Shown: piece after piece, positions 6,117-19,369 of the stretch
How the letters are laid out: the number at the start of each line of letters is the position of its first letter
Position numbering within the stretch: the first letter of the stretch is position 1
From: Sphaerotilus montanus
GTDB taxonomy: Bacteria > Pseudomonadota > Gammaproteobacteria > Burkholderiales > Burkholderiaceae_C
DNA length: 64,000 bases
Assembly (NCBI RefSeq): GCF_013410775.1
Contig: NZ_JACCFH010000001.1
Span: 1,178,001-1,242,000 of the forward strand
Reading direction: 5' to 3'
The notes under the pieces: generated by a model
What the model saw: only the letters and a program-made list of their open reading frames with translations
The model's database searches: none
Told to the model about the DNA's origin: nothing
Program-made: the position numbers and the translations under genes

Positions 6117-7307
6117 ATGGAGCTGGATGTCCGCACCCTGATGGTCGTGTTCACGGTGAACGTCTTCGCCGTGTCACTGGCGCTGCCCGCCATCATGGGC
6201 TGGCGCGTGGGACCGGCCGCGCGGCAAGCCGTGCTGTCGACCCTGCTGCAGGCGGGCGGATGGTTCTTCCTCGTGCTGTCGACCTTCTGGCGCCAGCAGT
6301 GGCAGGACCAGGTGTGCTCGGTGCTGGCGATGGCGGGAATGTCCGCCAGCCTCGTGCTGCTCTGGCGGTCGATCGGCCTGTGGACCGGACGTCCGCAGCG
6401 GGCCTGGCCGATGTGGACCCTGACAGTACTGATGACCCTCGGCTATGGCATCGGATTCGAGAACTACCCATGGCGTGTCGGACTGGCCAACGGCGTGCTG
6501 GGGACACAGATGCTGGCGATCGTGTTCGCTGTCAGCCGGCACAGCCCCGCGACGGGCTGGCGCTGGCGCGCGCTGATCGGACTGTGCATGGGCGCCACCG
6601 CGACCGTGACCTTCTGGCGCGGCATCCTGGGCGCCTTCTTCACCGCCTCCTACCCCTTCCTGACCGCGCCGCACCCGGTCAACAAGGTGGCCGCGCTGGT
6701 GAGCAACCTCTCGCTGGTGCTGACGACCGCCGCCATCCTGATGGCCTACCGCGAGGAAGCCGAGCGCGAACTGCACGCACAGGCCATCACCGACGACCTC
6801 ACCCGCCTGCTCAACCGCCGTGCCTGGACCGAGCGGGCCGAGGCCCAACTGGCCGACGCCCGCCGCTATGGGCATCCGCTGGTGGTGGTCATGCTCGACA
6901 TCGACCATTTCAAGCACGTCAACGATGCCCATGGCCACGCCAAGGGCGACCACGCGCTGCAGCTGCTCGCACGCCTGCTGCGCGAGGAACTGCGGGGCGG
7001 CGACCTGGCCGGGCGCTACGGCGGCGAGGAGTTCTGCGTCATCCTGACCCACACCCGCGAAGGCCAGGCACTCTCGTTCGACCAGCGGCTGCGCCACTGC
7101 CTGCGCCTGCAGTCGGAGCAGGAGCTGGGGTTCCTGCTCGAATACAGCGCCGGTCTGGCCGCGCAGGGCCCGAACGACCAGTCGCTCGACGACCTGCTGC
7201 GCCGCGCCGACGCCGCCCTCTACGAAGCCAAGCGCGCCGGGCGCGGGCAGGTCGTGCTGGCCCCGCGGAGCACGGTCGAGGCCAGCGCCACGGCCGTCCC
7301 GGCCTGA
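6117..7307 (+). CDS. Membrane diguanylate cyclase (GGDEF)
   Basis: 396 residues. The N-terminal half has about six hydrophobic segments (residues ~5-25, 40-57, 63-82, 97-115, 122-140, 150-172 and a further one near 190-210), followed by a short linker and a C-terminal GGDEF domain from about 220. The active site is intact: RYGGEEF near 299-305, with the inhibitory RxxD site (RGGD) five residues ahead, and the substrate/metal motif DIDHFKHVND. It should make c-di-GMP from two GTP and be product-inhibited. The ATG abuts the amn stop. The membrane part is not one I recognise as a named sensor module. Confidence 0.9.
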   Translation: MELDVRTLMVVFTVNVFAVSLALPAIMGWRVGPAARQAVLSTLLQAGGWFFLVLSTFWRQQWQDQVCSVLAMAGMSASLVLLWRSIGLWTGRPQRAWPMWTLTVLMTLGYGIGFENYPWRVGLANGVLGTQMLAIVFAVSRHSPATGWRWRALIGLCMGATATVTFWRGILGAFFTASYPFLTAPHPVNKVAALVSNLSLVLTTAAILMAYREEAERELHAQAITDDLTRLLNRRAWTERAEAQLADARRYGHPLVVVMLDIDHFKHVNDAHGHAKGDHALQLLARLLREELRGGDLAGRYGGEEFCVILTHTREGQALSFDQRLRHCLRLQSEQELGFLLEYSAGLAAQGPNDQSLDDLLRRADAALYEAKRAGRGQVVLAPRSTVEASATAVPA

Positions 7308-7317
7308 TCCAGATCAA
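7304..7317 (+). promoter_or_regulatory. FNR-like box upstream of the efflux operon
   Basis: CTGAT-CCAG-ATCAA differs from the FNR/ANR consensus TTGAT-N4-ATCAA at one position. It lies across the stop of the diguanylate cyclase gene and about 105 bases before the ATG of the outer-membrane factor gene. No convincing -10 is found at the spacing of a class II FNR promoter, so it may be chance. Confidence 0.22.
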
Positions 7318-7422
7318 GCCACGGACCCGCTCCCTGCGGTCATCCACCTAACTTTACGTACAGCGCACAGACACGCCACCCGGGCTTGGTACACCCTTGC
7401 TCCATGACATGGACTGTGCGCG

Positions 7423-8895
7423 ATGACCTCCGACGATCTGCCTGACGGGCGCCCTCGCGGCGCGTCCCGCCCTCTGCGGTGGCTGGCATGGCTGCCACTG
7501 TTGCCCATGCTGACCGCCTGTGCCACGCTGACGCCCCAAGGCGACCGCCCACCCACCGCAGCACCCGCAGCAGCAGCAGACGCAGACGCACCTTCGGCCG
7601 ACACCCTGCGCCTGCGGGCCCAGGCGCCCTGGTGGACCCGCTTCGACGACCCGCTGCTGGGGGCGCTGGTCACCGACGCGCTGCAGGCCAACCTGGACCT
7701 CGGCATCGCCCGCACGCGGCTGCTGCAGGCCCGCGCGCTGCGCGACCAGACCGCCGCCAGCCGCGCGCCGCAACTCGGCAGCAGCGCCAGCCTGTCACGC
7801 AACCGCAGCAGCGACCGGACCGCCTCGTCCTACAGCCTCGGACTCGACGCGAGCTGGGAAGCCGACCTGTTCGGCGAACTCGCCTCGGCCGAACGGGGCG
7901 CCCGCGCCGACCTCGCCACCGCCAGCGCCAACCTCGCAGCGGCGCGCCTCGCCGTAGCCGGCGAAGTCGGGCTGGCCTATGTGCAGTTGCGCGCCAACCG
8001 CGCCCGGCGGGCGCTGACCCAGTCCAGCCTCGCCGCCCAGGACGAGACGCTGCAGCTCACCGGCTGGCGCACCCAGGCGGGGCTGGCCAGTTCGCTGGAG
8101 GTCGAGCAAGCCCGCGCCAGCGCCGAGCAGACGCGCGCCCAGATCCCCGCCTACGACACCGCCATCGCGCAGGGCGAACACGCGCTGGCGATCCTGCTCG
8201 GCCAAGAGCCCGAGGCCCTGCGCACCCGCCTGGGCGACAGCACCCGCGTGCCGGTGCCCGCTGCCGCCACCGGCGTCGACGACCTCATGCGCCAGGGCCT
8301 GCCCGCCGACCTGCTGCGCCAGCGGCCGGACGTGCAGGCCGCCGAATCGGCCATCACCGCCGAACTCGCCCGGCTCGACCAGACACAGGCCGCCCGCCGC
8401 CCCGCCTTCCGCCTGAGCGGCGCGCTCGGCTGGCAGGCGCTGACGCTGGCAGCCCTCGGCAGTCCCGGTGCGCTGGCGGCGAGCCTGGCCGCCGCGGTCG
8501 ACTGGCCGATCCTCGACGGCGGCCGTGGTGCCGCGCAGGTGCAGGCGCAGCAGGCCGTGCTCGCCCGCGCCCGCCTCACCTACCAGGCCACGGCACTCGC
8601 CGCCGCCCAGGATGTCGCCGACGCGGTGAGCGCCCTGGAGGGCAGTCGCCGCCAGACCACCGCCCTCGACGCCGCCACCGACGCCGCCCGCAACGCCAAC
8701 CGCATGGCCCGCCAGCGCTACGAGGCCGGCCTGGTCGACTTCACCACCCTGCTCGACACCCAGCGCACCCTGCTGAGCATCGACAGCAGCCGCGCAGCCG
8801 CCGCCGCCGACACCAGCCTGAACCTGATCCGCCTGCACAAGGCGCTCGGAGGCGACTGGACTGCCCAGGACCCGGCCGGACACACCGCCCCATGA
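7423..8895 (+). CDS. NodT-family outer-membrane efflux lipoprotein
   Basis: 490 residues, TolC/OprM-like outer-membrane factor. A signal peptide with lipobox LTAC (Cys33) indicates a lipidated outer-membrane protein. Two repeats of the OEP domain follow, with long Ala-rich helices and the typical RPDVQAAE segment in the second half. It forms the outer exit duct of a tripartite pump. The last four bases overlap the start of the adaptor gene (ATGA), and the ATPase and permease follow, giving a four-gene operon for export of macrolide-like compounds, peptides or lipids. The substrate cannot be read from sequence. Confidence 0.9.
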   Translation: MTSDDLPDGRPRGASRPLRWLAWLPLLPMLTACATLTPQGDRPPTAAPAAAADADAPSADTLRLRAQAPWWTRFDDPLLGALVTDALQANLDLGIARTRLLQARALRDQTAASRAPQLGSSASLSRNRSSDRTASSYSLGLDASWEADLFGELASAERGARADLATASANLAAARLAVAGEVGLAYVQLRANRARRALTQSSLAAQDETLQLTGWRTQAGLASSLEVEQARASAEQTRAQIPAYDTAIAQGEHALAILLGQEPEALRTRLGDSTRVPVPAAATGVDDLMRQGLPADLLRQRPDVQAAESAITAELARLDQTQAARRPAFRLSGALGWQALTLAALGSPGALAASLAAAVDWPILDGGRGAAQVQAQQAVLARARLTYQATALAAAQDVADAVSALEGSRRQTTALDAATDAARNANRMARQRYEAGLVDFTTLLDTQRTLLSIDSSRAAAAADTSLNLIRLHKALGGDWTAQDPAGHTAP

Positions 8896-13905: not shown

Positions 13906-14208
13906 ATGCACATCATCATCTTCCGCAACCGCCTGAAGCCCGACGCCGTGGCCGACTACACCGGCTGGGCGGACCGCATGAGCGCCCTGGCGCGCACGAT
14001 GCCGGGCTACGTCTCGCACAAGGGCTTCACGGCGGCCGACGGCGAGCGGGTCACCATCGTCGAGTTCGAGTCCGAAGAAGCGATGCGCGGCTGGGCCACC
14101 CATCCGGAACACGTCGCGGCGAAGCAGAAGGGCCGCGCCGAGTTCTACACCGAGTACTCGCTGCAGATCTGCACCGAGCAGCGCGCCACGCGCTTCACGG
14201 CGGACTGA
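13906..14208 (+). CDS. ABM-family (antibiotic biosynthesis monooxygenase-like) small protein
   Basis: 100-residue dimeric alpha-beta barrel protein. It starts with the strand MHIIIFRN and contains the MPGYVSHKGF and VTIVEFES strands of the ABM fold, used by heme-degrading and quinone monooxygenases as well as by proteins without known activity. It starts five bases after the acyltransferase stop and so is in the same transcript. The catalytic Asn/Trp/His set of heme oxygenases is not evident, so the function is open. Confidence 0.8.
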   Translation: MHIIIFRNRLKPDAVADYTGWADRMSALARTMPGYVSHKGFTAADGERVTIVEFESEEAMRGWATHPEHVAAKQKGRAEFYTEYSLQICTEQRATRFTAD

Positions 14209-14220
14209 GTCAGGCGCGCT

Positions 14221-14622
14221 TCATGCGCGCTGCTGCCAGGCCGACCAGCCGTACCACGCCAGCGCGGTCCACAGCGCAATCACCAGCGCCGCGCCGAACA
14301 GGCTGCGCGGCTGGTCCTTGCGCGCATCGAGCCAGGCGACCGCCTGCGGGCGGCAGTCGGCCAGCACCGCCTCCGGCAGCAGCCGCACCGTCAGCCAGAT
14401 CAGGCCGGGCAGCAGCAGCAGGTCGTCCAGATAGCCGAGCACCGGGATGAAATCCGGGATCAGGTCGATCGGGCTCAGCGCATAGGCCACCACCAGCCAC
14501 GCCAGTGCACGGGCCAGCCAGGGCGTGCGCGGATCACGCAGGGCGAACCAGAGGGTGAGGCCGTCGCGCTTGATGCGGACAGCCCAGGTACGGGCGGTAG
14601 TGAGCAGGTGCATGGACGCCAT
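14221..14622 (-). CDS. DUF1232 (YkvA-like) membrane protein
   Basis: 133 residues. The DUF1232 signature PIDLIPDFIPVLGYLDD is complete and is followed by a hydrophobic LLLLPGLIWL segment; a second membrane helix lies near 107-127. Such proteins are small inner-membrane proteins of unknown role. Two in-frame ATG codons (14622 and 14613) are possible; neither has a strong ribosome site. It converges with the ABM gene and ends about 30 bases before the rhodanese gene region in the same orientation. Confidence 0.78.
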   Translation of the reverse strand: MASMHLLTTARTWAVRIKRDGLTLWFALRDPRTPWLARALAWLVVAYALSPIDLIPDFIPVLGYLDDLLLLPGLIWLTVRLLPEAVLADCRPQAVAWLDARKDQPRSLFGAALVIALWTALAWYGWSAWQQRA

Positions 14623-14649
14623 CTTCGCCCAGGTGCACCGGCCCGCGCA

Positions 14650-15225
14650 TCAGAAGTCGCCCGTGACGACGGGCAAGCCCAGCGCCGCCCAGTCCAGCAT
14701 GCCGCCGCGGTAGTAGTAGATCTTGTCGGCAGGGAAACCGTCGCGGGTCATCGCCAGGATGGCGGTCGGGCTTTGCGGGCAGACCGGGCCGTTGCAGAAG
14801 GCGTAGACCTTCTTCGCCGCCGTGCATTCCCAGCCCTTGCCGACCTTCTGGCAACCCAGCTCCTCCATCCGGCCGGCCACTTCGGTGTACGGAATGTGGT
14901 GCGTGTTCGGGATCGTGCCCTTCACGCGGTCCTCGGACTCGCGCATGTCGACCACGATCGCGCCCTTGTCGTTGAGCGCGTGCAGGATCTCGATCTCGCC
15001 CACCGGATGCACCCCGGCCACCGGCACCAGCGGCTGCAGCCAGCCCTTGTTCTTCGCGCACGGGGTCATCGTGCGGGTGATCGTCATCGGCCCCTTGGCC
15101 GTCTGGATGACAAAGGACTTGTCCTCGCCGAGGATGCGCAGCAGTTCGGGCTCGGCCGCCCGGGCTGGCGCCAGGGTGACAACGGCGACGCACAAGGCGA
15201 GGACCAGACGGGTGGATGGGGTCAT
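14650..15225 (-). CDS. Exported rhodanese-like protein
   Basis: 191 residues with a signal peptide (cleavage after ARA, about residue 23), then a rhodanese domain. The active loop is YAFCNGPVCPQSP, with two cysteines; the second (CPQSPT) occupies the catalytic position of the persulfide-carrying loop. It should act in the periplasm on sulfane sulfur. The ATG at 15225 has a GGAG ribosome site. The upstream region shared with the divergent EF-G-like gene holds a 28-base palindrome and a perfect FNR box, and a GATAAT -10-like hexamer (15288-15293 on the minus strand) sits inside the palindrome. Regulation by oxygen and by a second factor is therefore likely. Confidence 0.85.
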   Translation of the reverse strand: MTPSTRLVLALCVAVVTLAPARAAEPELLRILGEDKSFVIQTAKGPMTITRTMTPCAKNKGWLQPLVPVAGVHPVGEIEILHALNDKGAIVVDMRESEDRVKGTIPNTHHIPYTEVAGRMEELGCQKVGKGWECTAAKKVYAFCNGPVCPQSPTAILAMTRDGFPADKIYYYRGGMLDWAALGLPVVTGDF

Positions 15226-15284
15226 CGGAGTCTCCAGTGGTTGTCAGGGCCTGCGAGCGGTCCCGCCAGCAGGCGAATGCACGC

Positions 15285-15312
15285 TTGATTATCAGTAGGC
15301 ACTGATATTCAA
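15285..15312. promoter_or_regulatory. 28-base palindrome in the rhodanese/EF-G-like intergenic region
   Basis: TTGATTATCAGT (15285-15296), spacer AGGC, ACTGATATTCAA (15301-15312). The arms are complementary at 11 of 12 positions. It covers a GATAAT -10-like hexamer facing the rhodanese gene, so a repressor bound here would block that promoter. As RNA it could also form a hairpin. The pattern is not one I can assign to a named regulator. Confidence 0.6.
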
Positions 15313-15325
15313 ACCAGCCGATCAC

Positions 15326-15339
15326 TTGATGCAGATCAA
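15326..15339. promoter_or_regulatory. Perfect FNR/ANR box
   Basis: TTGAT-GCAG-ATCAA matches the FNR/ANR consensus TTGAT-N4-ATCAA at all ten defined positions. It lies 14 bases from the 28-base palindrome, 100 bases ahead of the rhodanese ATG and 110 ahead of the EF-G-like ATG. For the rhodanese promoter the box centre is about 40 bases from the -10-like GATAAT, which fits an upstream (class I) activator position. Confidence 0.65.
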
Positions 15340-15449
15340 TGCGCCTGCGTGCGCTTGTTCCGGTCGGTCAATCGGCGTACGCTGGCAGGCTCCACCCACC
15401 CAGACAGTGCTTGACCGCTGTCAGCGGCCCGGCGCTGAGGAGACAGACC

Positions 15450-17567
15450 ATGTCCAGCCCAGCCCTCGGCGGCTCCGTGTCCGGTGTCGCCGCTTCCTCC
15501 GCCGCAAGCGCCCCAGCCACCTCCCCTGTTTCGCACCTCCGCACGCTCGCCCTCGTCGGCCCCGCCGCGGCCGGCAAGACCACCCTCGCCGAAGCGCTGC
15601 TGGTGCAGGCCGGCATGGTCGGCGCCGCCGGCAGCGTCGAGCGCGGCAGCACCACCAGCGACTTCGACCCGATCGAGCGCCGGATGCAGCACTCGCTGCA
15701 CACCAGCGTGCTGCACCTCGACCACCAGGGCCTGCGCATCCACCTGCTCGACACGCCAGGCAGCGCCGATTGCCTCGGCCAGTCGCTGCCCGCGCTCGAA
15801 GCGGTGGAGACCGCCGCCATCGTCATCAACGCCACGTCGGGCATCGAGCCGATGGCCGTCCGGATGATGGCCTGGGCCGCCGAGCGGCAGCTCGACCGGA
15901 TGCTCATCGTCAACCGCATCGACGCCCCCGGCTTCAACGCCGCCGCGCTGCTGGCCCAGATCCAGGCCACCTTCGGCCGCGAATGCCTGCCGCTGAACCT
16001 GCCGGCCAACGGCGGCCGCGAGGTGGTGGACTGCTGGTTCGCGCCCGAGGCGACGCCGGGGCACGAGGCGGACGTGTCCTCGGTCGCCGCGGCGCACCGG
16101 GCGCTGGTCGAGCAGGTGGTCGAGGTCGACAGCGCCTTCGTCGAGCGTTACCTGGAAGAAGGCGATGTCGACGCCCGCGAGCTGCACGCGCCGCTGGAGC
16201 AGGCGCTGCGCGAGGGACACCTGATCCCCGTCGTGTTTGTCTCGGCCAAGGTGGGCACCGGCGTGTCGGCGCTGCTGGACGTGATCGCGCAGCTGCTGCC
16301 CGATCCGTCCGAGGGCAATCTGCCGGACTTCTTCAAGGGCGAGGGCTCGGCTGCCCGCCCGATGCACGCCCGGGTCGATCCGGACGCGCATGTGCTGGCG
16401 CAGGTCTTCAAGGTGACGATCGACCCCTATGTCGGCAAGCTCGGCATCTTCCGCATCCACCAGGGCACGGTGACACCCAACAGCCTGCTCTACGTGGGCG
16501 ACGGGCGCAAGCCGTTCAAGGTCGGCCACCTGTTCCGGCTGCAGGGCAAGACCCACACCGAGATCCCGAGCGCCGGACCGGGCGACATCGTGGCGGTCGC
16601 CAAGGTGGACGAGATCGCCTTCGACGCAGTGCTGCACGACGCCGCCGAGGACGACCACATCCACCTGAAGCCGCTGCCCTTCCCGGTGCCGGTGCACGGC
16701 CTGGCGCTGAAGCCCAGGCGCCACGGCGACGAGCAGCGGCTGTCGGAGGTACTGGCCAAGCTGGCGGCCGAGGATCCCTGCCTGCGCGTGGAGCACGTCG
16801 CCAGCACCCATGAGACCGTCGTCTACGGCCTGGGCGAGCTGCACCTGCGGGTGCTGCTGGAGCGGCTGCGCGAGGGCTACCGGGTCGAGGTGGAGACGGC
16901 ACCGCCGCGCATCGCCTACCGGGAAAGCATCACCACCACCGCGCAGGCCCAGTACCGCCACAAGAAGCAGAGCGGCGGCGCGGGCCAGTTCGGCGAGGTA
17001 CACCTGCAGGTGGAACCGCTGGCGCGGGGCGCGGGCTTCGAGTTCGTCGACGTGGTCAAGGGCGGCGCGATCCCGGGGCAGTTCATCCCCGCGGTGGAAA
17101 AGGGTGTGCGGCTGGCGATGGATGCCGGCGTGGTCTCCGGGCACCCGGTGGTGGATGTGCGCGTGACCGTGCTCGACGGCAAGCACCACAGCGTGGACAG
17201 CAAGGAGATCGCCTTCGTCACCGCGGGGAGAAAGGCCTTCATCCTCGCGGTGCGCGAGGCCCAGCCGGTGGTGCTGGAGCCGGTGGTCGACGTGGAGATC
17301 TCGGCGCCCGAGGCCATGATCGGCGACATCACCGGCGATCTGGCGGCGCGGCGCGGCGAGGTGCGCTCGACAACGCCGCAGCTGGGCGGGCGGGCGAGCG
17401 TGAAGGCCCGGGTGCCGCTGTCGGAGCTGTCGGGCTACCAGCTGCGGTTGAACGCGCTGACCCGGGGGGAAGGGAGCTACACGCTGGCCCTGTCCCACCA
17501 TGACGCGGTGCCGCCGGGCGTGCAGGCCGAGATGGTCAAGGGCTGGCAGCTGCGCGACGAGGACTGA
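15450..17567 (+). CDS. Elongation factor G-like GTPase (FusA paralogue)
   Basis: 705 residues with all five EF-G domains. The GTPase motifs deviate from housekeeping EF-G: the P-loop is GPAAAGKT rather than HIDAGKT, G3 is DTPGSADC with Ser in place of the catalytic His, G4 is NRID, and G5 is SAKVG. Domains IV and V are present (RHKKQSGGAGQFGEV; GDITGDLAARRGEV). Such EF-G2-type paralogues bind ribosomes but often hydrolyse GTP poorly; their roles are stress- or recycling-related and not settled. The ATG at 15450 follows a GGAGA ribosome site. The FNR box and palindrome lie upstream. Confidence 0.88.
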   Translation: MSSPALGGSVSGVAASSAASAPATSPVSHLRTLALVGPAAAGKTTLAEALLVQAGMVGAAGSVERGSTTSDFDPIERRMQHSLHTSVLHLDHQGLRIHLLDTPGSADCLGQSLPALEAVETAAIVINATSGIEPMAVRMMAWAAERQLDRMLIVNRIDAPGFNAAALLAQIQATFGRECLPLNLPANGGREVVDCWFAPEATPGHEADVSSVAAAHRALVEQVVEVDSAFVERYLEEGDVDARELHAPLEQALREGHLIPVVFVSAKVGTGVSALLDVIAQLLPDPSEGNLPDFFKGEGSAARPMHARVDPDAHVLAQVFKVTIDPYVGKLGIFRIHQGTVTPNSLLYVGDGRKPFKVGHLFRLQGKTHTEIPSAGPGDIVAVAKVDEIAFDAVLHDAAEDDHIHLKPLPFPVPVHGLALKPRRHGDEQRLSEVLAKLAAEDPCLRVEHVASTHETVVYGLGELHLRVLLERLREGYRVEVETAPPRIAYRESITTTAQAQYRHKKQSGGAGQFGEVHLQVEPLARGAGFEFVDVVKGGAIPGQFIPAVEKGVRLAMDAGVVSGHPVVDVRVTVLDGKHHSVDSKEIAFVTAGRKAFILAVREAQPVVLEPVVDVEISAPEAMIGDITGDLAARRGEVRSTTPQLGGRASVKARVPLSELSGYQLRLNALTRGEGSYTLALSHHDAVPPGVQAEMVKGWQLRDED

Positions 17568-17599
17568 TCGCCGCGCAGCCGCGCACCGGTCAACGGACG

Positions 17600-19267
17600 T
17601 CAGAAGTACCCGGGCTGGTGGTAGCCGCGCGACACGAGTTCGCCCTGCACCGAGACCGCGGGCGAGGCTGGGGCGTCCAACGTGTGCAGCGTGCCCTGCC
17701 CTTCGCCGCCGGCCAGCGTGCCGTCGGCGTTGGCGTCGAACACGGTGGTGGTGGACGCGCAGGCGTTGGTCGGCGCGTAGCCCAGGTGGCTGGCCGTCGC
17801 GACGAAGGTGGAGGCCAGGCCGGCGAGCGTGGCAGTCTGCGACTGGAAGCGGGCGGCGGGTGTGTGCACCGCGCCCGGCCCGGCCCAGTTGCAGACCATG
17901 CCGAGCAGGCTGCCGTCGGTGGTGGCCAGCGCGTCGGTGAAGGCGAAGTAGCCTTGCACGGTGCGGCTGTCGGCGGCGCTGTCGTAGGTGCTGCTGACGG
18001 CCAGCGCGCGGGCGTGGCGGTCGCCGGTGCCGGCCTGCCAGGCGTAGAGGAACTGGCCTGCGCCGGTCGTGCGGTCGTAGCGGCCGCCGAAGCGGTCGAA
18101 GTTGCCGCGCCAGCCGGTGGAGGTTCCCGCCACCACGGCGCTGCCGGGGGCACCGGCCGGGAGTTGTTCAGCCGGATCGAGTTCGTTGGTGGTGAAGCTG
18201 GCCACCTGGCGGGCGTAGTCGGTGTCGGCGAGGTCGGCCGGCGCGCCGCAGTACTGGCCGGAGCGGGCGCCGAAGTCGATCTGGTCGCCCTGGCGGCTGT
18301 AGCGCACGGTGGTGACGCGGGCGCGCTGGTAGCGGCCGCTGGTCATGCGGTCGCTGCAGCCGAAGGTGGCGTCGCTGGCCAGGTCGAACCCTGCCACGCG
18401 CAGCACGCCGCTGTAGGCCGCGGCCGTCGCGTCGGGCCGGTGCTGCAGCACGATCTCGCCGCTGCGCCCGGCCGAGGTGCCGGCGTTCCGGCTCACGGCG
18501 AGGCGGTAGGTGTAGGTCTTGCCGAAGGGGTCGAGCGACACCGTGGCGGCGTGCACGGTCACGCCCGTCAGCGCCGGCAGCGCGGTCAGCACGGTGGAGA
18601 ACGGCGTGGTCAGGTCGGTACGGAAGCCGGCCGCTGGCATGGACAGCGTACCGCCGGAGCTGGTGATCGTCGCGCGCATCACGGCCATCAGCAGCAGGCC
18701 CTGGCGGGTGGCGTGTTTCACGCCGGCCGTGCGCGCGTTGAGCTGTGCCACCACGCAAGGCTGGCCGCTGGCCGCGTCGGTCGGCAGCCACAGGCCGAGG
18801 TCCCCGCCCGGCAGCAGGCCGGATTCGGTGCCACTGCCGTCCTCGTGGTTCGCGTAGAGCAGCTGCGGGCCGTAGCATCCGGCGTTGCTGCCTTGCAGGA
18901 AGAGGTTGCCGAAACTCAGCAGCCCGCCCAGCGACACGCTGGTGTCGCCGGCCAGCACCGCCTCGATGCGGGCGCCCATGTCGGTCAGCTCGGCGCGTCC
19001 GGCACCGGCACCCAGCGGCACCGCGAGGGCGCGCGCCGTGGTCGAGGCCGCCGCCGATGCGCTGCCCAGCTCAGCCGGCGAGGCCACGACGAGGCCGGTC
19101 GGGAAGCTCTCGCTGGCGCTGACACTCGCCTGCGCGGTCGTCGGACTGGTCACCAGCGCCAGCGCCAGCTCGCCGCCGCTGCTGCCACCCCCGCCACAGG
19201 CGCTCAGCAGCAGGGGAAATGCCAGCGCCAGCACCGGGCGCGCGAAAGAAGGCAAGGACGACGACAT
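17600..19267 (-). CDS. Large secreted lipoprotein of unknown function
   Basis: 555 residues. The signal peptide ends in a lipobox LLSAC followed by GGGGSSGG, a flexible linker typical of outer-membrane lipoproteins. The rest is beta-rich, Ala/Ser/Thr/Gly-rich and has a few scattered cysteines (for example in NAGCYGPQLL, QPCVVAQ and YCGAPADLADTD) that could form disulfides. No enzyme motif is visible. The start at 19267 was chosen over an upstream in-frame ATG because it opens the signal peptide. The gene converges with the EF-G-like gene, 33 bases apart. Confidence 0.75.
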   Translation of the reverse strand: MSSSLPSFARPVLALAFPLLLSACGGGGSSGGELALALVTSPTTAQASVSASESFPTGLVVASPAELGSASAAASTTARALAVPLGAGAGRAELTDMGARIEAVLAGDTSVSLGGLLSFGNLFLQGSNAGCYGPQLLYANHEDGSGTESGLLPGGDLGLWLPTDAASGQPCVVAQLNARTAGVKHATRQGLLLMAVMRATITSSGGTLSMPAAGFRTDLTTPFSTVLTALPALTGVTVHAATVSLDPFGKTYTYRLAVSRNAGTSAGRSGEIVLQHRPDATAAAYSGVLRVAGFDLASDATFGCSDRMTSGRYQRARVTTVRYSRQGDQIDFGARSGQYCGAPADLADTDYARQVASFTTNELDPAEQLPAGAPGSAVVAGTSTGWRGNFDRFGGRYDRTTGAGQFLYAWQAGTGDRHARALAVSSTYDSAADSRTVQGYFAFTDALATTDGSLLGMVCNWAGPGAVHTPAARFQSQTATLAGLASTFVATASHLGYAPTNACASTTTVFDANADGTLAGGEGQGTLHTLDAPASPAVSVQGELVSRGYHQPGYF

Positions 19268-19369
19268 GCATGGACTCCGCAAGACTGAGCGGCCCATCTG
19301 AGCAGCCCGAGCCGCCACTGTCGTCCTTCATCTCAGGGGCTAAAGTTCGAAAACTGACCCCATCTGCGG

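Follow-up and report, generated by a model that had tools for sequence, protein, structure and literature searches.

Within the window, a stretch of 64,000 nucleotides from the 5.07-Mb genome of Sphaerotilus montanus (hereafter G000), a predicted exported rhodanese and a paralogue of elongation factor G (EF-G) are encoded by divergent genes that, as read directly from the sequence, stand 224 bp apart. Between them lie an imperfect palindrome and, with 13 bases in between, a perfect FNR-type box (Table 1). An earlier sequence-only reading had reported an exact TTGAT-N4-ATCAA and two 12-base arms with 11 of 12 positions paired, and both were read directly at the positions listed. The -10-like hexamer that the palindrome was said to cover was likewise located (GATAAT, minus strand, 15293-15288). 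No good -35 element accompanies this putative promoter; the same hexamer occurs at the equivalent position, in the downstream half of the palindrome, in G009, a separate genome of a congener. The palindrome does not stand out by its shape. Nine palindromes with 12-bp arms, one mismatch and loops of 0-10 were counted in the window against 11 expected, about one would be expected with a loop of four, and for a 224-bp stretch of such base composition the probability of holding one is about 0.001. The weight given to the palindrome comes from the recurrence of its sequence and not from its shape. An Rfam scan of positions 14000-18500 returned no known RNA element.

Table 1 Features of the intergenic region and its flanking genes (window coordinates)
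Feature	Position	Strand	Remarks
Exported single-domain rhodanese, probable target gene	14650-15225	minus	Pfam Rhodanese PF00581, E 1.9e-8
Imperfect palindrome TTGATTATCAGT-AGGC-ACTGATATTCAA	15285-15312		12-4-12, arms 11/12 paired
GATAAT, -10-like hexamer of putative rhodanese promoter	15288-15293	minus	inside the palindrome
Conserved palindrome core	15289-15308	minus-strand letters ATATCAGTGCCTACTGATAA	proposed operator of a sulfur-oxidation regulator
Perfect FNR-type box TTGATGCAGATCAA	15326-15339		exact TTGAT-N4-ATCAA
EF-G promoter, TTGTTC (15355-15360), 17 bp, TACGCT (15378-15383)	15355-15383	plus	counterpart of TTGTG-N15-19-TAnnCT in relatives
EF-G paralogue	15450-17567	plus	NCBIfam NF009891 elongation factor G

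The rhodanese gene begins with a signal-peptide-like segment, from which export is predicted, and the active-site cysteine is present in the loop FCNGPVCPQS. Close orthologues (66-82 percent) are rare: two of the 13 genus members carry the gene, G009 being the only one besides G000, as do six other genomes among the 399 of the order. A PDB sequence search with the rhodanese gave no match, and a plasmid search returned distant homologues only, below 60 percent identity. After the gene in G111 come genes of the yeeE type, one for a mercaptopyruvate-type sulfurtransferase, one for a BigR-like ArsR protein, and a sox cluster in which SoxC, SoxY and SoxZ were confirmed by curated models; in G052 its surroundings include, about 3 kb away, a SoxH-like gene and another exported rhodanese. 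These two neighbourhoods tie the rhodanese to sulfur oxidation independently of the palindrome. Many members of the Sphaerotilus-Leptothrix group carry sox genes (PMC13386937). By description, not by sequence, the protein can be likened to SoxL, a periplasmic sulfurtransferase of Allochromatium and Thiocapsa that is also exported and tied to thiosulfate oxidation, but SoxL reportedly stands in for SoxCD (PMC10892978), whereas G000 has soxC.

The pattern ATATCA-N8-TGATAT with at most one mismatch, drawn up after the first copies had been seen, was run genome-wide on G000, G009, G011 and G012. It was matched five times in G000, four times in G009, once in G011 and nowhere in the whole of G012, even though the last carries fisR; the motif is carried by two to three genomes only. 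A control pattern gave one genome-wide match in G000 and none in G009. Sites stood at sulfur genes in four of five cases in G000, three of four in G009 and the single case in G011. In G000 one site is that of the window rhodanese, one lies elsewhere (1791509), and three fall within one 52-kb sulfur stretch, where they precede a SoxH-like metallohydrolase gene with a PspE-like rhodanese gene, a SoxW-like thioredoxin gene adjoining a flavin sulfide dehydrogenase gene, and an operon whose ArsR gene adjoins an SQR-like (sulfide:quinone reductase) gene. For three of the four other G000 sites to share one such stretch has a chance of about 4e-6, an indicative figure, as the stretch was picked after its sulfur genes were known.

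The sequence upstream of the rhodanese in G009 reads ATATCAGTGATGGCTGATAA, compared with ATATCAGTGCCTACTGATAA in the window. Conservation of both intergenic elements among relatives had been proposed as a check. The palindrome core is kept before the rhodanese in the sole congener found with that gene. G009 has another perfect copy within the promoter of a gene for a FisR-like sigma-54 regulator, and a near copy precedes yeeE in a region that also holds soxB (so named from a start that agrees with the curated-confirmed SoxB of G000). This yeeE site is matched by a weaker yeeE site in G000, and the lone G011 site precedes the orthologue of the G000 SoxH-like gene. A weight matrix built from three sites and applied at chosen loci scored 15-26 bits at further sulfur-locus sites and 10 bits or less in 60 kb of G000 around other FNR boxes. 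From site centre to the start codon of the nearest sulfur gene the distance is 20-75 bp, and -10-like hexamers overlap with several of the sites. The rhodanese is preceded by AT-rich palindromes in G370 and G111/G259 too, but their letters differ and they were not counted as support. Because the palindrome sits almost only before reduced-sulfur genes in the genus, the exported rhodanese probably belongs to the sulfur-oxidation gene set. The exceptions, two of ten sites, are G000 1791509 and G009 1984470; the latter (G009:C1:1984470-1984489) reads ATATCAGTATCGCCGGATAT, a variant of the palindrome, at a distance of about 110 bp from the heavy-metal P-type ATPase gene that it precedes.

The core, ATATCAG-N6-CTGATAA, is predicted to be the operator of a sulfur-oxidation regulon that would include the exported rhodanese, and its regulator is most likely an ArsR repressor of the SoxR/SqrR/BigR type. 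The sequence-only reading had likened the palindrome to the site of a second regulator, possibly of ArsR type, and the recurrence at sulfur genes speaks for that suggestion. ArsR proteins of this group leave DNA upon sulfane sulfur (PMC10451225, PMC7315123). Such a repressor would sit over the GATAAT hexamer; sulfane sulfur would load its cysteines and release it from the DNA, and the rhodanese would be made while thiosulfate or sulfide is oxidised. Two suitable ArsR-type proteins are encoded in G000, one of them at about C1 2347467-2347868. The best candidate for the regulator is a 121-aa ArsR protein (G000:C1 2383385-2383750) with an orthologue in G009; BigR was its best match among solved structures, and its NCBIfam BigR match was below the cut-off. 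The second cysteine of the candidate lines up with its counterpart in the BigR-like G111 protein, and the first is placed three residues later than in BigR, a shift also seen in the ArsR protein adjoining soxC in G111. In G000 the core lies at the ArsR-containing operon (L232:5934); in the surroundings of the G009 ArsR gene (L235) the palindrome was not found. Elsewhere in G000 an ArsR-type helix-turn-helix and a rhodanese domain were observed on one strand with about 170 bp between them (C1:1825095-1825682; L229 about 7096-7683), and these may form one fused ArsR-rhodanese protein.

The arrangement resembles that of Hyphomicrobium SoxR (PMC10451225) and Acinetobacter BigR (PMC7315123) in having an inverted repeat near the starts of sulfur-oxidation genes, with targets that include a SoxH-like gene, yeeE and an operon with an ArsR gene, and with ArsR proteins of the group encoded in the genome. 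It differs from them in that ATATCAG-N6-CTGATAT was not found in the texts of those two papers and in that the window target is a stand-alone exported rhodanese away from a sox cluster. In the texts of the literature on SoxR, sHdrR, YgaV, A. baumannii BigR/FisR and HlyU, no matching operator letters were found. HlyU (PMC4330345), of the ArsR family, shares the related winged-helix family and an AT-rich imperfect palindrome, TAATTCAGACTAAATTA, but its operator letters are different and it is an activator in Vibrio.

Another sulfur-gene regulator, such as a sigma-54 activator of the FisR type or a TetR/MarR-type protein, might bind the palindrome instead, a possible though doubtful alternative to which the G009 site inside the fisR promoter lends some colour, as does the response of both FisR and ArsR-type regulators to sulfane sulfur (PMC7315123). 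However, both fisR copies in G000 lack the palindrome, no correctly spaced -24/-12 promoter was seen by eye downstream of the rhodanese palindrome, and the overlap of sites with -10-like hexamers suits a repressor. The palindrome as a FisR site was rejected, since fisR promoters have TGGCA/TGCCA repeats in common instead. The two G000 genes for FisR-like sigma-54 regulators are at C1 1686061-1687383 and 2360821-2362140; G009 has a single copy, the one with the palindrome.

No other perfect FNR box occurs in the window (three with at most one mismatch; 0.14 expected), and the whole genome holds seven. Measured back from the rhodanese start codon, the box begins at 114 bp and is centred at about 108 bp. 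An FNR-like protein with an N-terminal cysteine cluster, CSACNLRELC, is encoded beside hemN in G000, and a perfect box precedes ccoN (the hemN-side FNR gene and ccoN were named from starts and layout); by these two features the box is meaningful in this genome. The 14-mer TTGATGCAGATCAA also occurs at G000:C1:2197780-2197793, just upstream of a terminator-like hairpin between cytochrome c and ResB-like genes. The box has the exact consensus of anaerobic FNR/ANR regulons, but its spacing to the likely promoters is non-canonical and it is not kept in the nearest relative. Activating FNR sites usually lie at -41.5 or -61.5; the box is at about -51.5 to the rhodanese start predicted, and unmapped, from the GATAAT promoter.

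FNR control of the rhodanese, which would add low-oxygen control to that by the repressor, is likely on this evidence, although its case is weaker than that for the operator. The box recurs before the rhodanese in two species of a different family, with one mismatch in G052 and perfectly in G249; there it starts 116 bp ahead of the gene's probable TTG start codon, nearly the distance found here. It is absent before the rhodanese in G009, G370 and the G111/G259/G403 group. It is rather unlikely that the box at the rhodanese is a mere coincidence of letters or a functionless relic. Its absence in G009, the unusual spacing to the -10-like hexamer and the identical 14-mer before the hairpin all fit such an origin; set against these are the perfect match in a 224-bp gap, which occurred in none of 20000 random gaps, the recurrence at -116 in G052 and G249 versus -114 here, and the FNR-like gene and ccoN box in G000.

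Most, but not all, of the genus members searched carry the EF-G-like gene, which is a second EF-G paralogue. Upstream regions in the genus have a common promoter, CTTGTG...GTAGGCTG, and its counterpart in the window lies downstream of both the palindrome and the FNR box as seen from the EF-G side. Among 98 EF-G upstream regions, which take in a copy of the window's own genome, TTGTG-N15-19-TAnnCT was found in 38 and on the opposite strand in none, the palindrome in one, and a TTGAY-N4-RTCAA box in one. In the stretches covered in about 100 relatives, neither element was kept at EF-G and the rhodanese was never its neighbour. In G009 an efflux operon (named solely from ORF layout and starts) separates the rhodanese and EF-G genes, which share a chromosomal neighbourhood at a distance of 8.4 kb from each other. 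Compared with window positions 15226-15449, the corresponding stretch of G009 (L137 3673-12015) has about 8 kb extra, either inserted there or lost here.

The sequence-only reading had placed the rhodanese and the EF-G-like gene under one switch responding to oxygen and a second signal. Such a switch, in which FNR and a second regulator drive both genes, is very improbable. Both elements do lie between the divergent starts, and FNR is able to act on both flanks of a divergent region. However, no other genome found has the divergent pair, each element is found in just one of the 98 EF-G upstream regions with the window's genome included, the EF-G promoter is its own and conserved, and the centre of the FNR box, 117 bp upstream of the EF-G start codon, would lie at an unusual distance of about 57.5 bp (-57.5) from the predicted EF-G start. 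Common control of EF-G was rejected on these upstream regions. Since its relatives lack both elements, never adjoin the rhodanese and have a conserved promoter of their own, the EF-G-like gene is probably a bystander, an accidental neighbour transcribed from that promoter. An ordinary hairpin or chance repeat is scarcely credible as the origin of the palindrome, for although the window holds about as many palindromes of such size as expected, copies of this one stand at sulfur genes in three genomes.

The combined reading, in which the palindrome is the operator of a sulfur regulon, the rhodanese a member, an ArsR protein the repressor, FNR an additional input and EF-G an accidental neighbour, is considered likely. 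The locus is ordinary in kind and useful in detail, with a predicted operator and regulon for sulfur oxidation; an oxygen input at one promoter is probable, and there is no good case for co-control of EF-G. More tentatively, the Sphaerotilus-Leptothrix group may possess a dedicated ATATCA-N8-TGATAT operator, read by a SoxR-type ArsR repressor with a displaced cysteine pair, that serves a scattered regulon (including fisR in one species) and is combined with FNR at the rhodanese; if so, the rhodanese gene would sense sulfane sulfur and oxygen together. For sheathed, metal-oxidising Betaproteobacteria the analysis offers a concrete candidate operator sequence and target list for the control of sulfur oxidation; it also connects an uncharacterised exported rhodanese with the sulfur-oxidation pathway and suggests a way for oxygen and sulfur signals to meet on one promoter. 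The surprising link to a translation factor is removed.

Close to the EF-G-like gene, an ORF of 572 aa on the minus strand (17600-19318 in the window) has a lipoprotein-like start (LSACGGGGSS) and no Pfam or NCBIfam match.
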